Shown here piece after piece: positions 18,010 to 26,757 of a stretch of DNA of 32,804 bases. Made by a program: the position numbers and the translations under genes. Positions within the stretch are counted from its first letter, which is position 1. Every line of letters starts with the position of its first letter. Source of the DNA: Acidobacteriaceae bacterium. GTDB lineage: Bacteria; Acidobacteriota; Terriglobia; Terriglobales; Acidobacteriaceae. The DNA lies in contig PLBW01000197.1 in the NCBI GenBank assembly GCA_003135475.1, positions 1-32,804 of the forward strand. Direction: 5' to 3'. The notes beneath the pieces are model-generated. The model had not been told where the DNA came from. It searched no databases and saw only the letters and a program-made list of their open reading frames with translations.

Positions 18010-18411
18010 TTAGATTAGCCTTCGAAGACGATTCAAAAAACGGGCAGGGGCGGCAAGCTGACATTCCTTCACTCGAATTACTTTCCATCCTCGACTTCTC
18101 AGATGGCGCGCCACCTGCAAATCACGCCGCATGTTTCGCTGAACTTTAACCCGCCAAAAGATGGCTGACGACTTAGGGGCCTGATAGCAACGCGGGCAGC
18201 CGTGCCAAAAGCACCCGTCCACAAACAAGGCAACTTTGGCTTTGTGGAAAACGAAGTCTGGCTTGCCGAAAACCGGAGAGTGCCGCCTCCATCCCGTCAA
18301 CTTGTTTGCTCGTAGCAGAGTTGCCATCTTCAGTTCAGTGCTTGCGTTTCCGCGAGCGCGAACGCGGGACATAATCAGAGAGCGCTGCGCCTTGGTGAAA
18401 ACATCAGCCAT
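18010..18411 (-). CDS. vsr: Very short patch repair endonuclease (Vsr)
   Basis: A 133-residue Vsr nuclease. The family nicks DNA 5' of T:G mismatches produced by deamination of 5-methylcytosine and nearly always accompanies a cytosine-C5 methyltransferase. Visible: DVFTKAQRSLIMSRVRARGNASTEL (3-27), FGKPDFVF with the catalytic Asp52, and FVDGCFWHGCP (63-73) with the metal/zinc-site residues; the Cys-rich block continues with PRCY. The length is normal and the frame intact. It is the last gene of a minus-strand trio and starts 20 bases after the HNH gene. The only methyltransferase nearby (20177-19893) is truncated. Confidence 0.93.
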   Translation of the reverse strand: MADVFTKAQRSLIMSRVRARGNASTELKMATLLRANKLTGWRRHSPVFGKPDFVFHKAKVALFVDGCFWHGCPRCYQAPKSSAIFWRVKVQRNMRRDLQVARHLRSRGWKVIRVKECQLAAPARFLNRLRRLI

Positions 18412-18431
18412 TGCCTTTGGGAATTGTACGG

Positions 18432-18932
18432 TTACTTCGTCGGGCCAAATTTCCTAAGCAGCCAATTGAACACGGCGTGTTGCTCATCTATGCCAGCCCG
18501 ACGGACCTGGGAAAGCAGCCAAATAGCGGTTGGCTTCTCGCCTGTGATGTTCTTGGCTCCTTGATTGCAGGTTGAGCATAGCGCCCGAAGATTGGATAGT
18601 TCGTCTTTGCCGCCAAGATTCTTGTCCTTGATGTGGCCGACATGCAGGCGGACCTTGCGCCCAGTGGTCGGGTCAATATCCCCAGGCGAAAGGCCGCACA
18701 TCTGACAAGTGAAACCATTGCGGTCGAAAACTTCTGCGCGGAGCTTCGCAGAGATGGAGTGTTCGAATTTGAGTGCTGCTTCCGGGGGCCTTTCCGTCAA
18801 GAGGTACTGTCCAGGCTTCAAATCCGTACTATCGTTGTGCGTAAGGATGATCCACCCTTCCTGCTCTCCGTTTATCGGCGCACTCTTCGCTGTAGTGATC
18901 ACGGGCTCGTTCAAGGGCGGATTCAAAATCAA
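18432..18932 (-). CDS. HNH endonuclease
   Basis: A protein of up to 166 residues with a C-terminal HNH nuclease domain. Zinc-binding C76-x2-C79 and C119-x2-C122 frame the catalytic stretch RLHVGHIKDKNLGGKDELSNLRALC (His97, His100, Asn114), the complete beta-beta-alpha metal fold. The N-terminal 60 residues (ERPPEAALKFEHSISAKLRAEVF) are shared with stand-alone HNH nucleases linked to modification systems. The start is uncertain: TTG at 18932, TTG at 18926 or GTG at 18902 are all in frame. All overlap the preceding 119-residue gene. It is likely a restriction-type enzyme of the same locus as vsr. Confidence 0.85.
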   Translation of the reverse strand: MILNPPLNEPVITTAKSAPINGEQEGWIILTHNDSTDLKPGQYLLTERPPEAALKFEHSISAKLRAEVFDRNGFTCQMCGLSPGDIDPTTGRKVRLHVGHIKDKNLGGKDELSNLRALCSTCNQGAKNITGEKPTAIWLLSQVRRAGIDEQHAVFNWLLRKFGPTK

Positions 18933-19188
18933 TTGATTCTATGAGGCAGTCGTTAGTTTTCTGAACGTCGCACCAGTGCATAAGATCAGCAAGTAAGTCG
19001 CACAGCACCGTTTCAGGGTCAACCTTTACATCCCCGCCCAAGCCGGTGACGTCGGCAAAGTTGAGCACGGCGAATGCACCCCACAAGGAACGATCGGCGC
19101 AGCCAGGGTCCGCATTATTCTTGGCCAGACGGCGATTCACGCTTCGTACCCGGTTTCTGATCTTGAGGGTTGTAAGTCGATCCTCCAT
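18829..19188 (-). CDS. Small protein of the vsr/HNH operon, function unknown
   Basis: A 119-residue acidic protein, first gene of the minus-strand trio. A GAGGAG ribosome site lies eight bases before its ATG. The middle block TVLCDLLADLMHWCD followed by FESALERARDHYSEE is familiar from small uncharacterised proteins of plasmids and prophages, which usually end soon after that block. Here about 17 further basic residues follow, and they overlap the HNH gene by roughly 100 bases in another frame. A tail gained by loss of the original stop is possible. Function unknown. Confidence 0.65.
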   Translation of the reverse strand: MEDRLTTLKIRNRVRSVNRRLAKNNADPGCADRSLWGAFAVLNFADVTGLGGDVKVDPETVLCDLLADLMHWCDVQKTNDCLIESIDFESALERARDHYSEECADKRRAGRVDHPYAQR

Positions 19189-19268
19189 CCATTTTTCTCC
19201 TCTTGCGTGAAGGGCCCCGGTCGATGGCGCCGATTGCCGATTTCTCTCGTCAGCTCCTTCCGCTTGTC

Positions 19269-19287
19269 GTGTTCTATCTTAGAACAC
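19269..19287. promoter_or_regulatory. Perfect inverted repeat, candidate XRE operator
   Basis: GTGTTCTATCTTAGAACAC: two 8-base arms with a 3-base centre, exact, in the spacer between the divergent 119-residue gene (start 19188) and the XRE regulator (start 19295). Its size and symmetry fit a dimeric phage-type repressor site that could control both directions. Confidence 0.7.
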
Positions 19288-19294
19288 ATCTGAA

Positions 19295-19576
19295 TTGTCC
19301 GCAAAGTACTCTTTCCATGTGAAAAGAAAGCCTGCGCGAAAAAACATTATTGGCAGGCGCGTCGCTCAGGCGCGTCAAGGCTGCAGGCCAGCACTAACGC
19401 AGGATGCCCTTTCAGGGAAGCTCGCCCGGTGCGGAATTCAGCTCGACCGCGCCGCAATTGCAAAAATCGAAAACGATCTCCGCCATGTTCTTGACTATGA
19501 ACTTAAGGCTCTCGCAGAAGTGTTAGGCGTGGAGGCAAGTTGGCTTCTTGGAGATGAAAAAAAGGGGATTGCATGA
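19295..19576 (+). CDS. XRE-family helix-turn-helix regulator
   Basis: A 93-residue Cro/CI-type DNA-binding protein. The HTH spans about 17-80: IIGRRVAQARQ (helix 1), LTQDALSGKLARCGIQLDRAAIAKIEND (helices 2-3, with the insertion seen in some phage-like members), then ELKALAEVLGVEASWLLGD. No ATG fits; the TTG at 19295 is used here, and a GTG at 19319 is also possible. It most likely represses the island from the palindrome 8-26 bases upstream. Its stop overlaps the next gene's ATG by four bases. Confidence 0.82.
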   Translation: MSAKYSFHVKRKPARKNIIGRRVAQARQGCRPALTQDALSGKLARCGIQLDRAAIAKIENDLRHVLDYELKALAEVLGVEASWLLGDEKKGIA

Positions 19577-19896
19577 CCCCGGCCGAGCGGAAGAGCTATC
19601 GGATTAAGTTATTAGATGAACAAAAGGGTCTCTGTCCAGTTTGCGGATACGATAGCAATTACTGTTACTTTTGTGCCCGCAATATTGAACACCCCGGCGC
19701 GTGTAAGAGGCAGCCGGTCGTTGTCTTGGAGCACGATCACGGGCATTGCAAAGAGGGATGCGAGGTCTGTATCCGTGGAGTTGTACATCATGCATGTAAT
19801 AGGTTCATAGCGTTCATCGAAGCAAATCCCCAGGCCCATGACAGGCTCTTAACACCGTGGCTGCGGAGTTTCTTGTCAAAGGGAGACAAAACTTAG
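19573..19896 (+). CDS. Endonuclease VII-like HNH nuclease
   Basis: A 107-residue protein with the recombination endonuclease VII type of HNH motif: C21-x2-C24, then [26 protein letters not shown] with E53-H54-D55-H56 and the closing C75-N76. In phage T4 this fold resolves branched DNA; small chromosomal copies often accompany mobile or modification genes. An extra Cys-rich insertion (C31, C34, C44) lies between the zinc knuckle and the catalytic block. It overlaps the XRE gene by four bases and ends tail to tail, overlapping by four bases, with the truncated methyltransferase. Confidence 0.8.
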
Positions 19897-20177
19897 CTTG
19901 GGGAGTTAACGGAATATGCCTGACATGGCGGCGATGCGTGAACGGCGTCAAACGATGCGATGAACGTCGGGTCAAGCGTAAGCGCATCAGCTTGGATGAA
20001 CGGCAACGGGTAATGCGGCTGGGGATTAATGTCCACCCCGACAACCTCGAATCCTGCCCTGTTGTAACCAACCCCCGCGCCGCCCGCACAGCAAAAGAGG
20101 TCGAGTAGTCTCGGCTTCGTGACTGGCGTCTTATCGCCTCCCGCCCTCACCATACGTTGATTATCGGCCTTCCGCAT
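19893..20177 (-). pseudogene. DNA cytosine-C5 methyltransferase, N-terminal fragment
   Basis: The frame encodes motif I ([20 protein letters not shown]), the motif II acid VVGVDI, and motif IV with the catalytic cysteine (ASPPCQAYS), then stops after five unrelated residues. Complete enzymes continue through motifs VI (ENV), VIII (QRR), the target recognition domain, IX and X, all missing here. The sequence beyond the stop is the endonuclease VII gene's 3' end in the opposite direction, so the C-terminal two thirds were replaced or deleted rather than frameshifted. Several starts are possible (20237, 20177, 20153). Unlikely to methylate DNA. It was presumably the partner of vsr. Confidence 0.85.
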
Positions 20178-20349
20178 GGAAACATGATGCCACGGATTCA
20201 GCAGCGCCGTAACCCCCCTGTGCAAATCCTGTACCAAGAGGGTTCACTTCGCCGAGATCCGCGAATCAGCAACAACATCTTTCGTTCGCCTTCGTCCGGA
20301 CCTCGTGATACTTTAGAAACCCAAACTTCGCCCAAGGAACCACGCCGCC

Positions 20350-20749: not shown

Positions 20750-21688
20750 TTAGTCCAATTTCAACCCGCCGGTCAGATCGCTAATCTTTTCGATGCGGTG
20801 TTCCAGGCACCACTTCTCCAGGGAATCGACCAGCGTCTCACAGGCGCAGGGATCCCAGAAATTCACCGTGCCAACCTCGATGGCGGTTGCGCCGGCCAGC
20901 AGGAATTCAATCACATCTTCGGCGGTGCTGATGCCGCCGATTCCGATGACGGGTATCTTCACCGCCTTGGCCGCCTCCCACACCATGCGCAGGGCAATCG
21001 GCTTGATGGCGGGGCCGGACAGTCCGGCGGTGACGTTGGAGATGCGCGGCTTGCGGGTTTCGGCGTCAATCGCCATGGCCACGAAAGTATTGACCAGCGA
21101 GATGGCGTCGGCCCCTGCTTCCTCGGCTGCCCGCGCCACCTCGGGAATGCTGGTCACGTTGGGCGAAAGTTTCACGATGAGCGGGCGGGTGGCAATCTTC
21201 TTGACTGCGCTGACCACGTCAAACAGCATTTTGGGATCGCTGCCAAAGCTGATCCCGCCGCACTTGGTGTTAGGACAGGAAACGTTGAGCTCATAAGCGG
21301 CGATGCCCGCGCCGTCGTTGAGCATGCGTACCACGTCTTCGTACTCCTCCTGCGAATGCCCAAAGACGTTGCAGAAGAAAACGATGTTCTTGATGTTGTT
21401 CAGAAGCGGCAGCTTTTCTTCGAGAAAGGCCCGCACTCCAACGTTCTGCAGTCCGATGGCATTGAGCATGCCGGCGGCAGTTTCAAACAGCCGCGGCGGA
21501 GGATTGCCGGCCATCGGCTCGCGGGAAAGTCCCTTCACCACGAACCCGCCCAGCCGATCAAGCGTGACCACGTCTTCGAATTCCACGCCATAGCCAAAGC
21601 TGCCGCTGGCAGCCATGACCGGGTTCTTGAGCGTAATTCCCGCAACGTTGACGCTCATATCCAGCGCGGGCTTGGGAGCAGGACTCAC
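20750..21688 (-). CDS. pyrD: Dihydroorotate dehydrogenase, class 1B catalytic subunit
   Basis: A 312-residue flavoenzyme oxidising dihydroorotate to orotate in pyrimidine synthesis. The class 1 signature ELNVSCPNTKCGG carries the catalytic base C138 (Cys marks class 1; class 2 has Ser), and the FMN-binding IPVIGIGGISTAEDVIEFLLAGA block is present. The open frame extends to a GTG at 21721, but a GTG at 21686-21688 has a GGAGGA ribosome site six bases upstream (21695-21700) and avoids overlapping the fusion gene, so it is chosen. Class 1B enzymes need the electron-transfer subunit PyrK, which is not in this window. Confidence 0.92.
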   Translation of the reverse strand: MSPAPKPALDMSVNVAGITLKNPVMAASGSFGYGVEFEDVVTLDRLGGFVVKGLSREPMAGNPPPRLFETAAGMLNAIGLQNVGVRAFLEEKLPLLNNIKNIVFFCNVFGHSQEEYEDVVRMLNDGAGIAAYELNVSCPNTKCGGISFGSDPKMLFDVVSAVKKIATRPLIVKLSPNVTSIPEVARAAEEAGADAISLVNTFVAMAIDAETRKPRISNVTAGLSGPAIKPIALRMVWEAAKAVKIPVIGIGGISTAEDVIEFLLAGATAIEVGTVNFWDPCACETLVDSLEKWCLEHRIEKISDLTGGLKLD

Positions 21689-21701
21689 CAGTTGTCCTCC
21701 A

Positions 21702-24700
21702 TCAATGCGCCTCTCTTTCACGGCCTACGGTAATGGGCTGTCTCACACTGGCCGTGCGCTCCAGTTTGTCCCAGGCAAAGCTGCCCCCTTCCATGGCGCG
21801 CTTGAGCGTCTTGAGGAGCACCAGGGAGAACAGTTGGCGGTAGGCGAAACGTTGCAGCCAGACATGGCCCAGCAAGAGGAAGTCGCGTTTTCTGCCGGGC
21901 TGTTGCCGTTCCAGCGCGAAGGCGATGGCGGATGCGATGAAATCAATCACCATGAACAATGCGAAGTACACGACCAGGCGCTGGAAGCTGGCCGGATTCG
22001 CCGATTCCGGATGGAAATACCTGTTGACGAAGTAAGTCGCCGATCCCACCACAAACATGATGTCAATAAACGGCGAGACCAAGGGCAGCAGGATCTGGAA
22101 GATGACCATGTTGGGTATCGCCACCCAGCCCAGCGCTCCCTTTTGCTTCACCGCCGCGCGGTGCTTCCACACCGACTGCATAATGCCAAAGGACCAGCGG
22201 AAGCGTTGCCGCATCAACCCGCTCGCCTTGGTTGGCGCCTCGGTATAGGCCAGCGCGCGGTCCTCGTAGTTGACCCAGTAGCCCGCTTGGAGGAGCGCCA
22301 TGGTGAGATCGGCATCTTCGGCGACGGTGTCGTGCTGATAACCGCCGGCGGCGCGAACCGCAGCGGTGCGCCATGCGCCAATGGCTCCGGGGACCACGCT
22401 GACGGCGTTGAGCGTGTTCAGCGCGCGCCGCTCGAAGTTCTGGCTGGTGATGTACTCCAACGCTTGCCAGCGCGTCCACAGATTGACGCGATTGCCGACT
22501 TTGGCATTGCCTGCCATGGCTGCCACCCGCGGATTGCTAAAGTGCGGCACCAGTTTGGAGATCGCATCGGGCGCAACCAGGGTGTCTGCGTCGATGCCCA
22601 CAAACAGCTCTTCCGTCACTTGCTCGAGTCCGAAGTTGAGCGCGTCGGCTTTGCCCGAATTTGGCTTGGTCAACACCGTGACCCGGCCGGCCGCGATCTC
22701 GTTCTGGAAGGCGGCCCGGGTGACCTCCAGAGTCGTGTCGGTCGAGCCATCGTCGATCACAATGACCCGAAGGTGCTGGTAGTTGGAATCCAGGACCGAA
22801 CGGACGGTGCGATCGATAACTTTCGCCTCGTTGTAGGCGGGGATGAGCACGGCAACCGCCGGCCGATAGGTGGGATCGAAGTTGCTCTTGCGCCGATGGA
22901 AGCGGTCAAAGATGGCCAGCGTTCCGACCAGCACCAGACGCCCGCTCATCAGCACGTCACCCACGAAGAAAACGAAAATGATGAACGACGAGATGAGCCC
23001 GAACATGCCGAAGCTCAGGCCGTCGACCCAGGCGGCCCAGCGCTCGTTGGTTGAAATGGGCGGCATGATTTCGGCGCGGGTCTTGCCCAGCAGATCGGAG
23101 ACTGGCACGATCTCGTAGCCGCGGGCCCGCAGGCCGTCGATCATCATGCCCAACGCTTTGACCGTCCGGCTGCGGTTACCACCGCCATCGTGCAATAGGA
23201 TGATGTTCCCGCAGCTAAGATTGCCGGGGTGGCAGGGGGGCAGGTTGGCGTACACGTCGGCCACGATTTCGTCGGCGGAACGTCGCGGATTATCGCGCCA
23301 GTCGCTGGGATCGATCTTGTCCCCCACCGTGATAAAGCCCATGTCCTGCGAGAGTTCCAGGGGACGAACCTGGTCGGCGGTATCGGGCTCCTGGTCAATC
23401 GAATAGGGCGGACGGAAGAGTACGGGCTTGACTCCCAGCTTGCCTTCGAACAACCGCTCGGTGAGGTTCAGTTCCACTTCGAAGTAGCGCTTGGAGATGT
23501 TGCTGATATCGGGATGGGTGAAAGTGTGGTTCCCGATTTCATGGCCTTCCTGGTAAATGCGCTTGGCAATGCCGGGATACTTTTCAACTTCCAGCCCAAT
23601 AAGGAAGAAAGCGGCCTTGACGTTTTTTTCTTTCAGCACGTCGAGAATCTTGGGAGTCCACGTGGGGTCGGGGCCGTCGTCGAAGGTGATGGCAACCTTC
23701 TTTTGCGAGGTCCCGCCGTACATGTCCACTTCGTACGGTGACGGCATCGTCTTGAAGACCTCGTCGCTGACCAGGTTGGTATTGGGATCGAGCGTGATCC
23801 GGCGTTCGCCGGAGGCCGGACGCGAGGCGATGCGCAGCACTTCGCCTTGCCCTTCAATGTCCACATCCTGACCGGGGGGGACAGTCTCCAGCTTGGCGGG
23901 TGCATTGGCCTCGAATGGCCGGTCCCACACCGCCCACAGCGAGCGGTCTTCCGAACCCAGCCTCCATAATGCGAATGTGTTGATGCCCAACGAATGCGCC
24001 GCCCGCATCTGGTTGAGCACGGTCACCCCGTCGAGAAACCACACGTCGTGGCGAACGTTATTGTCGTCAAGATAGGCAAAGTGCGGATTCATGGCATCGT
24101 CATCGAAGTTCACGTCGGTCTCAGCATCTTCGGCTTCGAGCCAGGCGTCCTGCGCCGAGACGGTGTGCACCTCCGCGGGCGGCGCACCTTTCTTCTGGCC
24201 CTTTTTCATCGCCCAGTCGTAGCCGTAATTGCCGACCGCGCAGATGATTTTTTCCTTGGGAATGACCTTGAGGGCGTCTTGCAGGTTCTTCAGGAACCAG
24301 TCCTGCCCGGCAACCGGGCCGGAGTCGCCGCCGGGGTAGTGCTGGTCATAGTTCATCAGGATCAAGCCATCCGAGATTTGCGCGATGGTGGGATAGTCGA
24401 ATGTCTTGTCGTTGACCGGCACGGCGATATACAGCTTCAGGCCCTTGGCGTGGAGATCATCGTGGAGCTCTTGCACCAGCGCGTGGTAGTCGCCGCGTGA
24501 GGTTTCGGGAAAGGCCTCAATGTCCAGCGTGATGCCCTTGTACTGGTCGGTGGCCAGGAAACTCATCAGCTCGCTGCGGAAGCGCTGACGCGCCGCCGGA
24601 TCGGCCAGGAATTTCGCGGTAACGTCGGGTTGCCACTCATTGCTGATGGGATCGAAGTTGTTGACCAGAGGCAGGACCTCGGTTTGCGCCTTCTCGCCCT

Positions 24701-25196
24701 TGAGAAACGGCATCACCCTTTCGTCCACCGGACGCGGCTTGCCCTTGTCGTCCATCATGTTGTACAGAGTGTTCAGTTCAGTGACCGCTTGCAGCCGGCC
24801 GTCCGCGGTCAGCACATGCATCCACTCGGGAAACAGCAGGTCGATCTGCGGGTAGTACTCTTTCAGCGAGGCGAAGCTGGCCGCGTCCCACTGCACATAG
24901 AACGCTCCGCGAATGCCTTCGTCGGAGTTCAGGACCACCTGCGACGCGGGCCGCTTGGTCTTGCGGTGTGTGTTCGGCCGGCGTGGCGGCTTGTGCTTCT
25001 GGCTTTCCTTAAGAGCGTGATAGGGCTTCTTCACCAAAGGGAGGGGAACGCCGGGAACGGACGATCCACGAATGATGGTCGCGACAAAAAACACCCCCAG
25101 CAGTGTGACAACGATTACGCTGGTATCGAGCACCCAGCGTAAACGCCGCCAGCGCTTGCGATCGGGATCGAAAAAAATCGGTTTCGACTTAGGCAT
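21702..25196 (-). CDS. Tri-domain membrane protein: GH18-like, NodB deacetylase, processive GT2
   Basis: A protein of 1164 residues. A transmembrane anchor (about 25-42) is followed by an external GH18-like domain (90-425) with the acid motif GITLDIEAF (Asp225, Glu227), then a NodB polysaccharide deacetylase (about 485-700) with TFDDGPDP (Asp506, Asp507), HTFTH (His557, His561), RPPYS and LLHDGGG. A second membrane segment (about 726-748) leads to a cytoplasmic GT2 synthase with IDDGSTD, the DAD motif (869-871), TVAEDADL and QRFRW (997-1001), the set of processive beta-glycan synthases, then two or three more membrane helices. It plausibly makes, deacetylates and trims or guides an extracellular amino-sugar polymer such as poly-GlcNAc. 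The ATG at 25196 drops 11 unsupported residues. Confidence 0.85.
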   Translation of the reverse strand: MPKSKPIFFDPDRKRWRRLRWVLDTSVIVVTLLGVFFVATIIRGSSVPGVPLPLVKKPYHALKESQKHKPPRRPNTHRKTKRPASQVVLNSDEGIRGAFYVQWDAASFASLKEYYPQIDLLFPEWMHVLTADGRLQAVTELNTLYNMMDDKGKPRPVDERVMPFLKGEKAQTEVLPLVNNFDPISNEWQPDVTAKFLADPAARQRFRSELMSFLATDQYKGITLDIEAFPETSRGDYHALVQELHDDLHAKGLKLYIAVPVNDKTFDYPTIAQISDGLILMNYDQHYPGGDSGPVAGQDWFLKNLQDALKVIPKEKIICAVGNYGYDWAMKKGQKKGAPPAEVHTVSAQDAWLEAEDAETDVNFDDDAMNPHFAYLDDNNVRHDVWFLDGVTVLNQMRAAHSLGINTFALWRLGSEDRSLWAVWDRPFEANAPAKLETVPPGQDVDIEGQGEVLRIASRPASGERRITLDPNTNLVSDEVFKTMPSPYEVDMYGGTSQKKVAITFDDGPDPTWTPKILDVLKEKNVKAAFFLIGLEVEKYPGIAKRIYQEGHEIGNHTFTHPDISNISKRYFEVELNLTERLFEGKLGVKPVLFRPPYSIDQEPDTADQVRPLELSQDMGFITVGDKIDPSDWRDNPRRSADEIVADVYANLPPCHPGNLSCGNIILLHDGGGNRSRTVKALGMMIDGLRARGYEIVPVSDLLGKTRAEIMPPISTNERWAAWVDGLSFGMFGLISSFIIFVFFVGDVLMSGRLVLVGTLAIFDRFHRRKSNFDPTYRPAVAVLIPAYNEAKVIDRTVRSVLDSNYQHLRVIVIDDGSTDTTLEVTRAAFQNEIAAGRVTVLTKPNSGKADALNFGLEQVTEELFVGIDADTLVAPDAISKLVPHFSNPRVAAMAGNAKVGNRVNLWTRWQALEYITSQNFERRALNTLNAVSVVPGAIGAWRTAAVRAAGGYQHDTVAEDADLTMALLQAGYWVNYEDRALAYTEAPTKASGLMRQRFRWSFGIMQSVWKHRAAVKQKGALGWVAIPNMVIFQILLPLVSPFIDIMFVVGSATYFVNRYFHPESANPASFQRLVVYFALFMVIDFIASAIAFALERQQPGRKRDFLLLGHVWLQRFAYRQLFSLVLLKTLKRAMEGGSFAWDKLERTASVRQPITVGREREAH

Positions 25197-25214
25197 TCGG
25201 AGCCAATTTATCGT

Positions 25215-25313
25215 AGCAGCAGTTAGCACTTAGCCGTTAGCCTTTGGCATTTCGTTAAGGCACTCCGGCCAAATGCTAAATGCCAAAGGCTAATTGCTAT
25301 CTGCAAGCTGCTA
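25215..25313. repeat. Long inverted repeat between divergent glycosyltransferase genes
   Basis: Exact 16-base arms at 25237-25252 and 25278-25293 (TTAGCCTTTGGCATTT and its reverse complement) enclose a 25-base loop. Outer bases continue imperfectly to TAGCAGC (25215-25221) against GCTGCTA (25307-25313). It fills the spacer between the fusion gene (start 25196) and the GT39 gene. TTAGC/AATGC-type runs of this kind suggest an extragenic palindromic element. Confidence 0.75.
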
Positions 25314-25323
25314 TATTCGCCAC

Positions 25324-26757
25324 GTGCTGGAACCGGAGCGCAATTCGCTGAGCACAAGAACTGGGACGCACCCGTTCTGGAACATGCTGCGGGAGTCTCG
25401 GAAGTACTTCCTGCTGGTCACACTGGCGGCTTGTGCGCTGCGGCTTTTCTTCTACCTTAGATTCCCGCACGTGACCGGCGATTCGCTGGTTTACGGGGAC
25501 ATCGCCAAAAACTGGCTTCAGCACGGCATCTACGGCCTGACTCACGCCGAAGGGCCGCGGCCTACCTGGATTCGCCTGCCCGGCTATCCCGCGTTTCTGG
25601 CCGTCTGCTTTGCGCTATTTGGAAGCGAGCATTACAACGCCGTCCTGCTGGTGCAGATCGTCATCGACGTGGCGGGCTGTTTCGTCATCGCCGACTTGGC
25701 GCGCAGAGCGGTGTCGCCGAGCGCGGCACGGTCCACGTTTCTTCTGGCTGCGCTGTGTCCCTTTACCGCCAACTACTCGGTTGCTCCGCTGGCTGAGACG
25801 CTGAGCATCTTCTGCACTGCAGTTGCTCTCGATTGCGCAGTCACCGCGTTCCAGGCCGCGGAGGAGGGGCTTACCCTCTGGTCTGCCTGGATGGGCTGCG
25901 CTTTCGCCGTCGCGGCGGGAATCCTGCTCCGCCCCGACGGCGGCATTCTGCTGGTGGCGCTGGGACTGTTTCTGTTGTGGCGGATGTGGCAAAGGCCTGC
26001 GGAGCGTACGCGCCTATTCTGGGCGGGAGCGCTGGTGCTGGCGGTTTCGCTGGCGCCCCTGGCGCCATGGACGGTCCGAAATTGGCGCGACTTCCATCGT
26101 TTCCAACCCCTGGCCCCACGTTACGCCAGCGATCCAGACGAGTTTGTGCCGTCTGGTTTCGACAAGTGGGTGCGAACCTGGGTCGTGGACTACGTTTCCA
26201 CCGAGGAGATCTACTGGCAGATTCCGGGCGATGACGTTAATTTGCAGAACCTGCCCTCGCGGGCCTTCGACAGCGCGCAGCAGCGCGAGACGACGCAAGC
26301 CATCTTCAACGATTACGCCAAGACACAGGTGGTCGATCCCGAACTGAACGCCCGCTTTGCGGAGTTGGCCAACGAGCGCGTAAAACGCGCGCCATTTCGT
26401 TATTACATATGGCTGCCCGCGTTGCGCATCGCCGACATGTGGCTGCGTCCCCGTACGGAAATGCTGCCGCTCAACACGCGCTGGTGGGAGTACGCCAACG
26501 ACACCGAGGGCAGCGTCCTGGCCACCCTGTGGGGCGTGCTCAACCTGCTATTCCTGTTCGCGGCGGTGATGGGATTGGTGCGCGGGCCGCGGCCTCGCTA
26601 CCTCGCGCTTATGTTGTTGTTCGTGATCTTGCGCTCGGCGTTTCTGGGCACGCTGGAAAACCCCGAACCGCGCTATACGTTGGAGTGCTTTCCGGTGGTG
26701 CTGGTCTTGGGTGGGGCATGGCTGTCGCGGATCAACAGACGAAGAGTCCTACCGTGA
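25324..26757 (+). CDS. GT39-type membrane glycosyltransferase
   Basis: A polytopic protein of about 477 residues. After a short basic N-terminus comes a first membrane helix (KYFLLVTLAACALRLFFYL), then the external loop with GDSLVYGDIAKNWLQHGIYG and RLPGYPAFLAV, the acidic first-loop pattern of GT39/ArnT-like lipid-linked sugar transferases. About nine to ten more hydrophobic segments follow, with a soluble loop near 290-390. Such enzymes use polyprenyl-phosphate sugars at the outer membrane face; sugar and acceptor are unknown. Starts at TTG 25294 (inside the inverted repeat), GTG 25324 or ATG 25384 are possible. Its 3' end overlaps the panC relic. Confidence 0.75.
   Translation: MLEPERNSLSTRTGTHPFWNMLRESRKYFLLVTLAACALRLFFYLRFPHVTGDSLVYGDIAKNWLQHGIYGLTHAEGPRPTWIRLPGYPAFLAVCFALFGSEHYNAVLLVQIVIDVAGCFVIADLARRAVSPSAARSTFLLAALCPFTANYSVAPLAETLSIFCTAVALDCAVTAFQAAEEGLTLWSAWMGCAFAVAAGILLRPDGGILLVALGLFLLWRMWQRPAERTRLFWAGALVLAVSLAPLAPWTVRNWRDFHRFQPLAPRYASDPDEFVPSGFDKWVRTWVVDYVSTEEIYWQIPGDDVNLQNLPSRAFDSAQQRETTQAIFNDYAKTQVVDPELNARFAELANERVKRAPFRYYIWLPALRIADMWLRPRTEMLPLNTRWWEYANDTEGSVLATLWGVLNLLFLFAAVMGLVRGPRPRYLALMLLFVILRSAFLGTLENPEPRYTLECFPVVLVLGGAWLSRINRRRVLP

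Follow-up and report, generated by a model that had tools for sequence, protein, structure and literature searches.

A Single-Chain Acidobacterial Membrane Protein Joining GH18, Polysaccharide Deacetylase and GT2 Synthase Domains, Probably for Making a Partly Deacetylated Amino-Glycan

The window analyzed here, a stretch of 32,804 nucleotides from an Acidobacteriaceae genome, contains a gene for one membrane protein that joins a GH18 barrel, a CE4 deacetylase and a GT2 domain resembling PgaC and hyaluronan synthase. We consider it probable (roughly 0.7) that this protein works as a self-sufficient machine in the inner membrane that makes a GlcNAc polymer and removes part of its acetyl groups. 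The GH18-CE4-GT2 architecture is widespread, not rare; what is new here is that the GH18 catalytic acid has changed repeatedly while the CE4 and GT2 sites hardly vary, and this is the part worth following. Polymers of the PNAG type drive adhesion and biofilms, and E. coli needs several proteins plus a porin for them. Having synthase, deacetylase and barrel in one polypeptide offers a compact setting in which to study the coupling of synthesis to modification, and the naturally occurring Glu-to-Gln variants could show whether the hydrolase fold serves to guide or to cut.

Gene and Domain Layout

The gene is read from an ATG, a start that exactly reproduces the coordinates, the length and the Glu227 given in an earlier note on this DNA. 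A longer open frame begins at an in-frame GTG (21702-25229, minus strand, 1175 residues), with the ATG 33 bases inside it; the relatives L027-L029 start close to the ATG. Residue numbers are counted here from the ATG, positions mapped in the alignment having been counted from the GTG (11 higher). The features are as follows.

21702..25196, minus strand: whole gene, 1164 residues from ATG, a single uninterrupted frame
25068..25157, minus strand: N-terminal membrane helix (model helix at residues 14-43; hydropathy peak at residues 24-42)
23907..24920, minus strand: GH18 barrel, residues 93-430, of the SleL/YdhD and chitinase fold (Pfam, sequence and fold matches)
24516-24518, minus strand: codon of Glu227, within GH18
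23715..23906, minus strand: linker from GH18 to CE4, residues 431-494, largely beta strands in the model
23082..23714, minus strand: CE4 polysaccharide deacetylase of NodB/PgdA type, residues 495-705 (Pfam, NCBIfam and PDB matches)
22896..23051, minus strand: second membrane helix, residues 716-767 (hydropathy and model)
22185..22862, minus strand: GT2 synthase, residues 779-1004, with DDGS, DAD, AEDADL and QRFRW (Pfam, NCBIfam, sequence and fold matches)
21789..22136, minus strand: C-terminal membrane and interface helices, residues 1021-1136 (hydropathy and model)

Pfam recovers the domains in the order GH18 (55.7 bits, cut-off 29.6), Polysacc_deac_1 (119, cut-off 23.1) and GT2 (112, cut-off 27), so that the three domains of the single-chain GH18-CE4-GT2 family lie in one open frame. 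Among NCBIfam models PgaC/IcaA (TIGR03937) ranks highest with 172.4 bits, under its cut-off of 422.3; the NodC model (TIGR04242) reaches 94.7 bits, under its cut-off of 550, and NodB also matches below cut-off. Compared by sequence with solved structures, the CE4 part comes closest to peptidoglycan deacetylases; the GH18 part is nearest to 5jh8 (a probable chitinase), YdhD and SleL, and the GT2 part to 6yv7 (PcManGT), chondroitin synthase and hyaluronan synthase. The second helix, GT2 and the C-terminal helices together align to hyaluronan synthase.

A chance fusion or an assembly join is ruled out by single frames in many genomes: the same domain order recurs in one frame in other genomes at 94 to 31% identity, and the AlphaFold2 model of the whole protein, built from 59 sequences, has a mean pLDDT of 89.6 and a pTM of 0.75.

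Catalytic Residues

The catalytic functions of the GH18, CE4 and GT2 motifs are well known for their families. The GH18 barrel carries the D-x-E and MxYD expected of glycoside hydrolases of this family (D225-x-E227; residues 281-284 with Y283 and D284) as well as W411. Its first motif is the reduced form T223-x-D225-x-E227, without the full chitinase motif, DxxDxDxE; Glu is the state of the acid position in known active GH18 enzymes. The CE4 part has the D/HxxxH set (D506/D507, H557/H561) together with the Arg, Asp-Trp and His motifs (R595, D632/W633, H669). The synthase part shows D815/D816, D869/D871, E960/D961 and Q997/R1000/W1001, namely the D, DxD, ED and QxxRW of processive GT2 enzymes with membrane helices on both sides, processivity itself being predicted from these sequence characters. 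The proposal that three full active-site sets coexist in one chain is therefore borne out: the residues could be mapped, all Pfam domains exceed their cut-offs and no key residue is lost.

Structure and Membrane Topology

In the model, residues 93-430 superpose on chitinase 5jh8 (Z 34.4, rmsd 2.2, 307 aligned) and on SleL 4s3j_C (Z 33.6, rmsd 3.2, 322 aligned), whereas the CE4 part matches the Bc1960 deacetylase 5o6y (target TM 0.85, rmsd 2.5, 36% identity). Residues 738-1163 fit the hyaluronan synthase of Chlorella virus, 8snc (Z 31.8, rmsd 3.5, 387 aligned), and residues 737-1139 the mannosyltransferase PcManGT, 6yv7_B (Z 32.9, rmsd 3.3, 341 aligned); since the two fit about equally well, the fold does not fix the donor sugar. 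PgaB was absent among the matches listed in the fold comparisons, to which we give no weight as evidence.

Hydropathy, with the peaks of the single sequence and of the family average merged, places membrane segments near residues 24-42, 727-760, 1022-1053 and 1074-1092. The Lys/Arg counts before and after these segments are 6/3 (taking the 15 residues before the first helix), 1/1, 4/0 and 2/4. The charges at the first, third and fourth helices fit a protein with its N-terminus inside, GH18 and CE4 outside and GT2 inside; the second helix is neutral, with equal flanking charge (1 and 1), and its direction thus rests on the other three. GH18 and CE4 are therefore likely to lie outside the membrane, as predicted from hydropathy, charge and the helices of the model, in keeping with the earlier note, which had the modifying domains outside and not in the cytoplasm. 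The alignment to hyaluronan synthase begins at residue 38 of the latter, which would fit a core resembling hyaluronan synthase with the outer domains inserted after its first helix and before its second. The same note had regarded the domain order as reversed relative to the path of export; this is not supported, because with the outer domains between the first two membrane helices the order of the chain need not oppose the order of export.

Distribution of the Three-Domain Protein

The protein is present in nine of nine same-genus genomes, several copies being cut by contig ends (41 genomes were searched, its own and 40 relatives). In a sample of its phylum, 31 of 149 genomes match at E 1e-60 or better; one of these matches (G105) covers the GT2 part only, another (G164) residues 442-1158 only, at a contig end and with one stop inside, and a third (G057) contains one internal stop. 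Plasmid records gave 47 matches, 22 of them spanning 80% or more of the query, including Sphingomonas, Deinococcus, Prevotella and Sulfitobacter. A scan of named genomes confirmed 587 stretches, of which the 80 best were used; lone deacetylases may be among the 587, since the scan patterns were deacetylase motifs. A scan of viral contigs found nothing.

All three Pfam domains exceed their cut-offs in proteins of Deinococcus, Sphingomonas, Prevotella, Cyanobacteriota, Gemmatimonadota, Bacillota, Desulfobulbus, a gammaproteobacterial MAG and a Bacteroidota MAG, besides the acidobacterial protein of the window. By record titles these span eight phyla (Gemmatimonadota, Bacillota and Desulfobulbus from MAGs only), so that singularity of the architecture is not supported. 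The GH18 cut-off is passed by 9 of the 12 Pfam-scanned relatives that align over the GH18 region; a Verrucomicrobia copy (L099) scores 22.7 bits, under the cut-off of 29.6, and in two copies with a replaced acid, L036 (Gln) and L030 (Ser), Pfam recognizes no GH18. In the tree the window protein is placed among Terriglobia. The copy in a genome titled Arthrobacter (L056) groups inside Sphingomonas, and its assembly is probably mislabelled.

Replacement of the GH18 Acid among Relatives

The alignment comprises 107 rows, the window and L008-L113, which are not independent since near-copies are among them. At each of the 17 catalytic positions of CE4 and GT2 at most one row carries another residue, gaps aside. 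The position of the GH18 acid, by contrast, has Glu in 88 rows, another residue in 14 and a gap in 5; leaving out the gapped rows and L033, a Streptomyces row devoid of GH18 whose aligned Glu is spurious, Glu is kept in 87 of 101 rows and replaced in 14 (eight Gln, two Asp, two Ser, one Pro and one Gly). The window and all eight same-genus loci keep it. Rows lacking Glu belong to Granulicella/Bryocella and a related MAG (five), Mucilaginibacter, Verrucomicrobiota and Desulfobulbus (two each), and Sulfitobacter, Methylobacterium and Rhizobium (one each). Two close Verrucomicrobia copies (L095 and L110) differ in the acid motif, DWQ versus DWE.

A tree built from the CE4-GT2 half of 99 rows (eight left out by name) requires at least six changes of the acid, and a 49-row tree seven, counts that carry no direction. 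In the 49-row tree support for the MatB-like root is low (78/91), and two long branches come together; for these reasons we claim no direction for gain or loss of GH18.

The dN/dS of GH18 in the five Gln-bearing rows of the Granulicella/Bryocella clade is 0.164, versus 0.169 in five relatives with Glu, indicating that the domain is still constrained, these ratios being rough since dS is near saturation. Divided by the dN of GT2 in the same proteins, that of GH18 comes to about 2.8 in the Gln clade (0.268/0.095) versus about 2.1 in the relatives with Glu (0.353/0.172), pointing to some relaxation. One Gln-bearing copy (L097) passes the GH18 cut-off with 38.7 bits (versus 29.6). Further GH18 residues drift in several rows lacking Glu, and decay of the domain in these lineages is possible.

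Comparison with Known Systems

The protein is presumably a member of the family that we take to be CDD cd06549, GH18_trifunctional, described as uncharacterized and with the same architecture of GH18, deacetylase and GT2. Our search of the open-licence literature found neither a study nor biochemistry of any three-domain GH18-CE4-GT2 member. The closest characterized relative is Streptomyces MatB (SLI_3306 / SCO2962), a CE4-GT2 fusion without GH18, in which a NodB-like CE4 precedes a PgaC-like GT2 in one chain, as in the window protein; MatAB is required for PNAG in Streptomyces (PMC4391728, PMC5972031). Unlike the window protein, MatB acts with MatA in a monoderm host, and no GH18 part is described for it. 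The CE4-GT2 half is collinear with a MatB-like plasmid protein of Streptomyces (compared in place of S. lividans MatB itself) through CE4, membrane helix, GT2 and C-terminus, with 244/658 residues identical. In Kocuria a CE4-GT2 fusion adjoins a separate gene annotated as chitinase, whose product scores under the GH18 cut-off (22.0 of 29.6 bits).

PgaB and PgaC of E. coli likewise bring a GT2 synthase, a deacetylase and a glycoside hydrolase domain to bear on one polymer (PMC7112194), but as separate proteins that work with PgaA and PgaD; in PgaB the hydrolase follows the deacetylase, whereas GH18 comes first here. GT-PgaB fusions without pgaA and pgaD have been reported in Gram-negative bacteria (PMC7112194). 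Like our protein, they combine a deacetylase with a GT in one chain, have no porin that could be detected and make an unproven product, but their GT is reported as N-terminal and the glycosyl hydrolase domain as missing, whereas ours has a C-terminal GT and GH18 is present.

An E. coli-type Pga operon is rejected, the PgaA and PgaB models remaining under cut-off. PgaA (TIGR03939) exceeds its cut-off in none of 25 genomes (the window's own, 82% complete, and 24 relatives), with weak partial matches in all 25, and does so in 1 of 14 control genomes; the best PgaB (TIGR03938) match in the own genome has 40.7 bits versus a cut-off of 321.9.

Possible Mechanism and Alternative Readings

Starting from what was computed (domains, residues, fold, the single frame and its wide conservation), we infer the donor sugar, the topology in the cell, the order of events and all activities as follows. 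On the cytoplasmic side the GT2 core would build the chain, with UDP-GlcNAc as the probable donor, and thread it through the synthase's own helices; the chain would emerge next to the outer pair of domains, which are anchored by the first and the second helix. CE4 would then remove acetyl groups, leaving a cationic chain, while the GH18 barrel would hold the chain and, when it has Glu as here, could cut at acetylated units, thereby setting chain length or releasing the product. The GH18 and PgdA/NodB-type CE4 relatives suggest a beta-1,4 linkage, the PgaC score and MatB a beta-1,6 linkage. The function guessed in the earlier note is reasonable.

The role of GH18 within such a machine can be read in another way, namely as a guide for the emerging chain, with hydrolysis an extra kept in many lineages and cutting not the core job. 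The 14 replacements among 101 rows while CE4 and GT2 sites hold, the recurrence of the change on both trees, the persisting constraint in the Gln clade and the Gln-bearing copy still recognized by Pfam all speak for it; yet Glu is retained in the large majority of rows, the window and its genus included, the relaxed GH18/GT2 ratio, the two copies in which Pfam recognizes no GH18 and the drift of other residues make decay possible, and the counts of change are undirected and the dS values nearly saturated. We regard the guide role as a tentative proposal, with the odds somewhat against it. Still more doubtful is the wider picture of a one-gene route to cationic amino-glycans over many phyla, PgaA-less in the relatives of the window: GH18 would mainly guide the chain, its acid having been altered six times or more on the tree, and what is conserved would be synthesis plus deacetylation rather than cutting.

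The product could also be a short chito-oligosaccharide, Nod-factor-like or a periplasmic glycan, trimmed by GH18, instead of a long exopolysaccharide. The matches to NodB and NodC, albeit below cut-off, would agree with this, as would the lack of PgaA matches over cut-off and the finding of one export protein among 20 neighbors scanned with Pfam; but PgaC/IcaA outscores NodC, the fold of the synthase part matches that of hyaluronan synthase, which makes long chains, and those 20 neighbors were chosen ones, so that other export genes may be missed. This makes a short product improbable in our judgment. Remodeling of a peptidoglycan-like glycan in place of new synthesis would suit the outer domains, whose nearest named relatives are SleL, YdhD and PgdA-type enzymes, but sits poorly with a fused synthase that is complete, nearly invariant and similar to polymer synthases, and with the need for MatB, which has the same CE4-GT2 half, in making PNAG; it is the least probable of these readings.

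Genomic Surroundings

The two neighbors of the gene are the following, an export porin being at neither side.

20750-21721, minus strand: pyrD, dihydroorotate dehydrogenase, overlapping the synthase stop by 20 bases
25294..26757, plus strand: PMT_2-type membrane glycosyltransferase gene, upstream of the synthase gene and divergent from it, with 97 bases between

By tblastn over 106 loci (L008-L113), of which 29 matched, the PMT_2 gene accompanies the synthase gene in 28 of 34 related loci: 15 of the 19 from the same genus, family or order (L008-L026; none in L013, L015, L018 and L024) and 13 of the 15 Terriglobia loci among the 80 best stretches of the genome scan (no match in L044, nor in L045, which begins within the synthase gene). 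In L064 a match is also present, downstream of the synthase gene. The PMT_2-type gene is a possible functional partner of the synthase.

Clustering of the neighbors in 80 loci (L034-L113) showed them to be mainly lineage-local, with PMT_2 in 14 loci and an MprF-type protein in seven (Pfam on one, L060); GH26 lies beside L099 and L105. The export protein mentioned above is of the Poly_export type and lies beside L098. L098 and L104, Glu-less relatives from alphaproteobacteria, have related genes directly downstream, that of L098 being this Poly_export/SLBB gene. Just upstream of a Verrucomicrobia copy (L109:5062-7617, plus strand) a GH2-type TIM barrel is fused to a GT2. Elsewhere in the window, 18010-20237 (minus strand) encodes a Vsr endonuclease, an HNH protein and the apparent start of a truncated C5 cytosine methylase (114 residues, PF00145 at 23.9 bits, stopping soon after PPC), and is possibly a decayed methylase/Vsr module.
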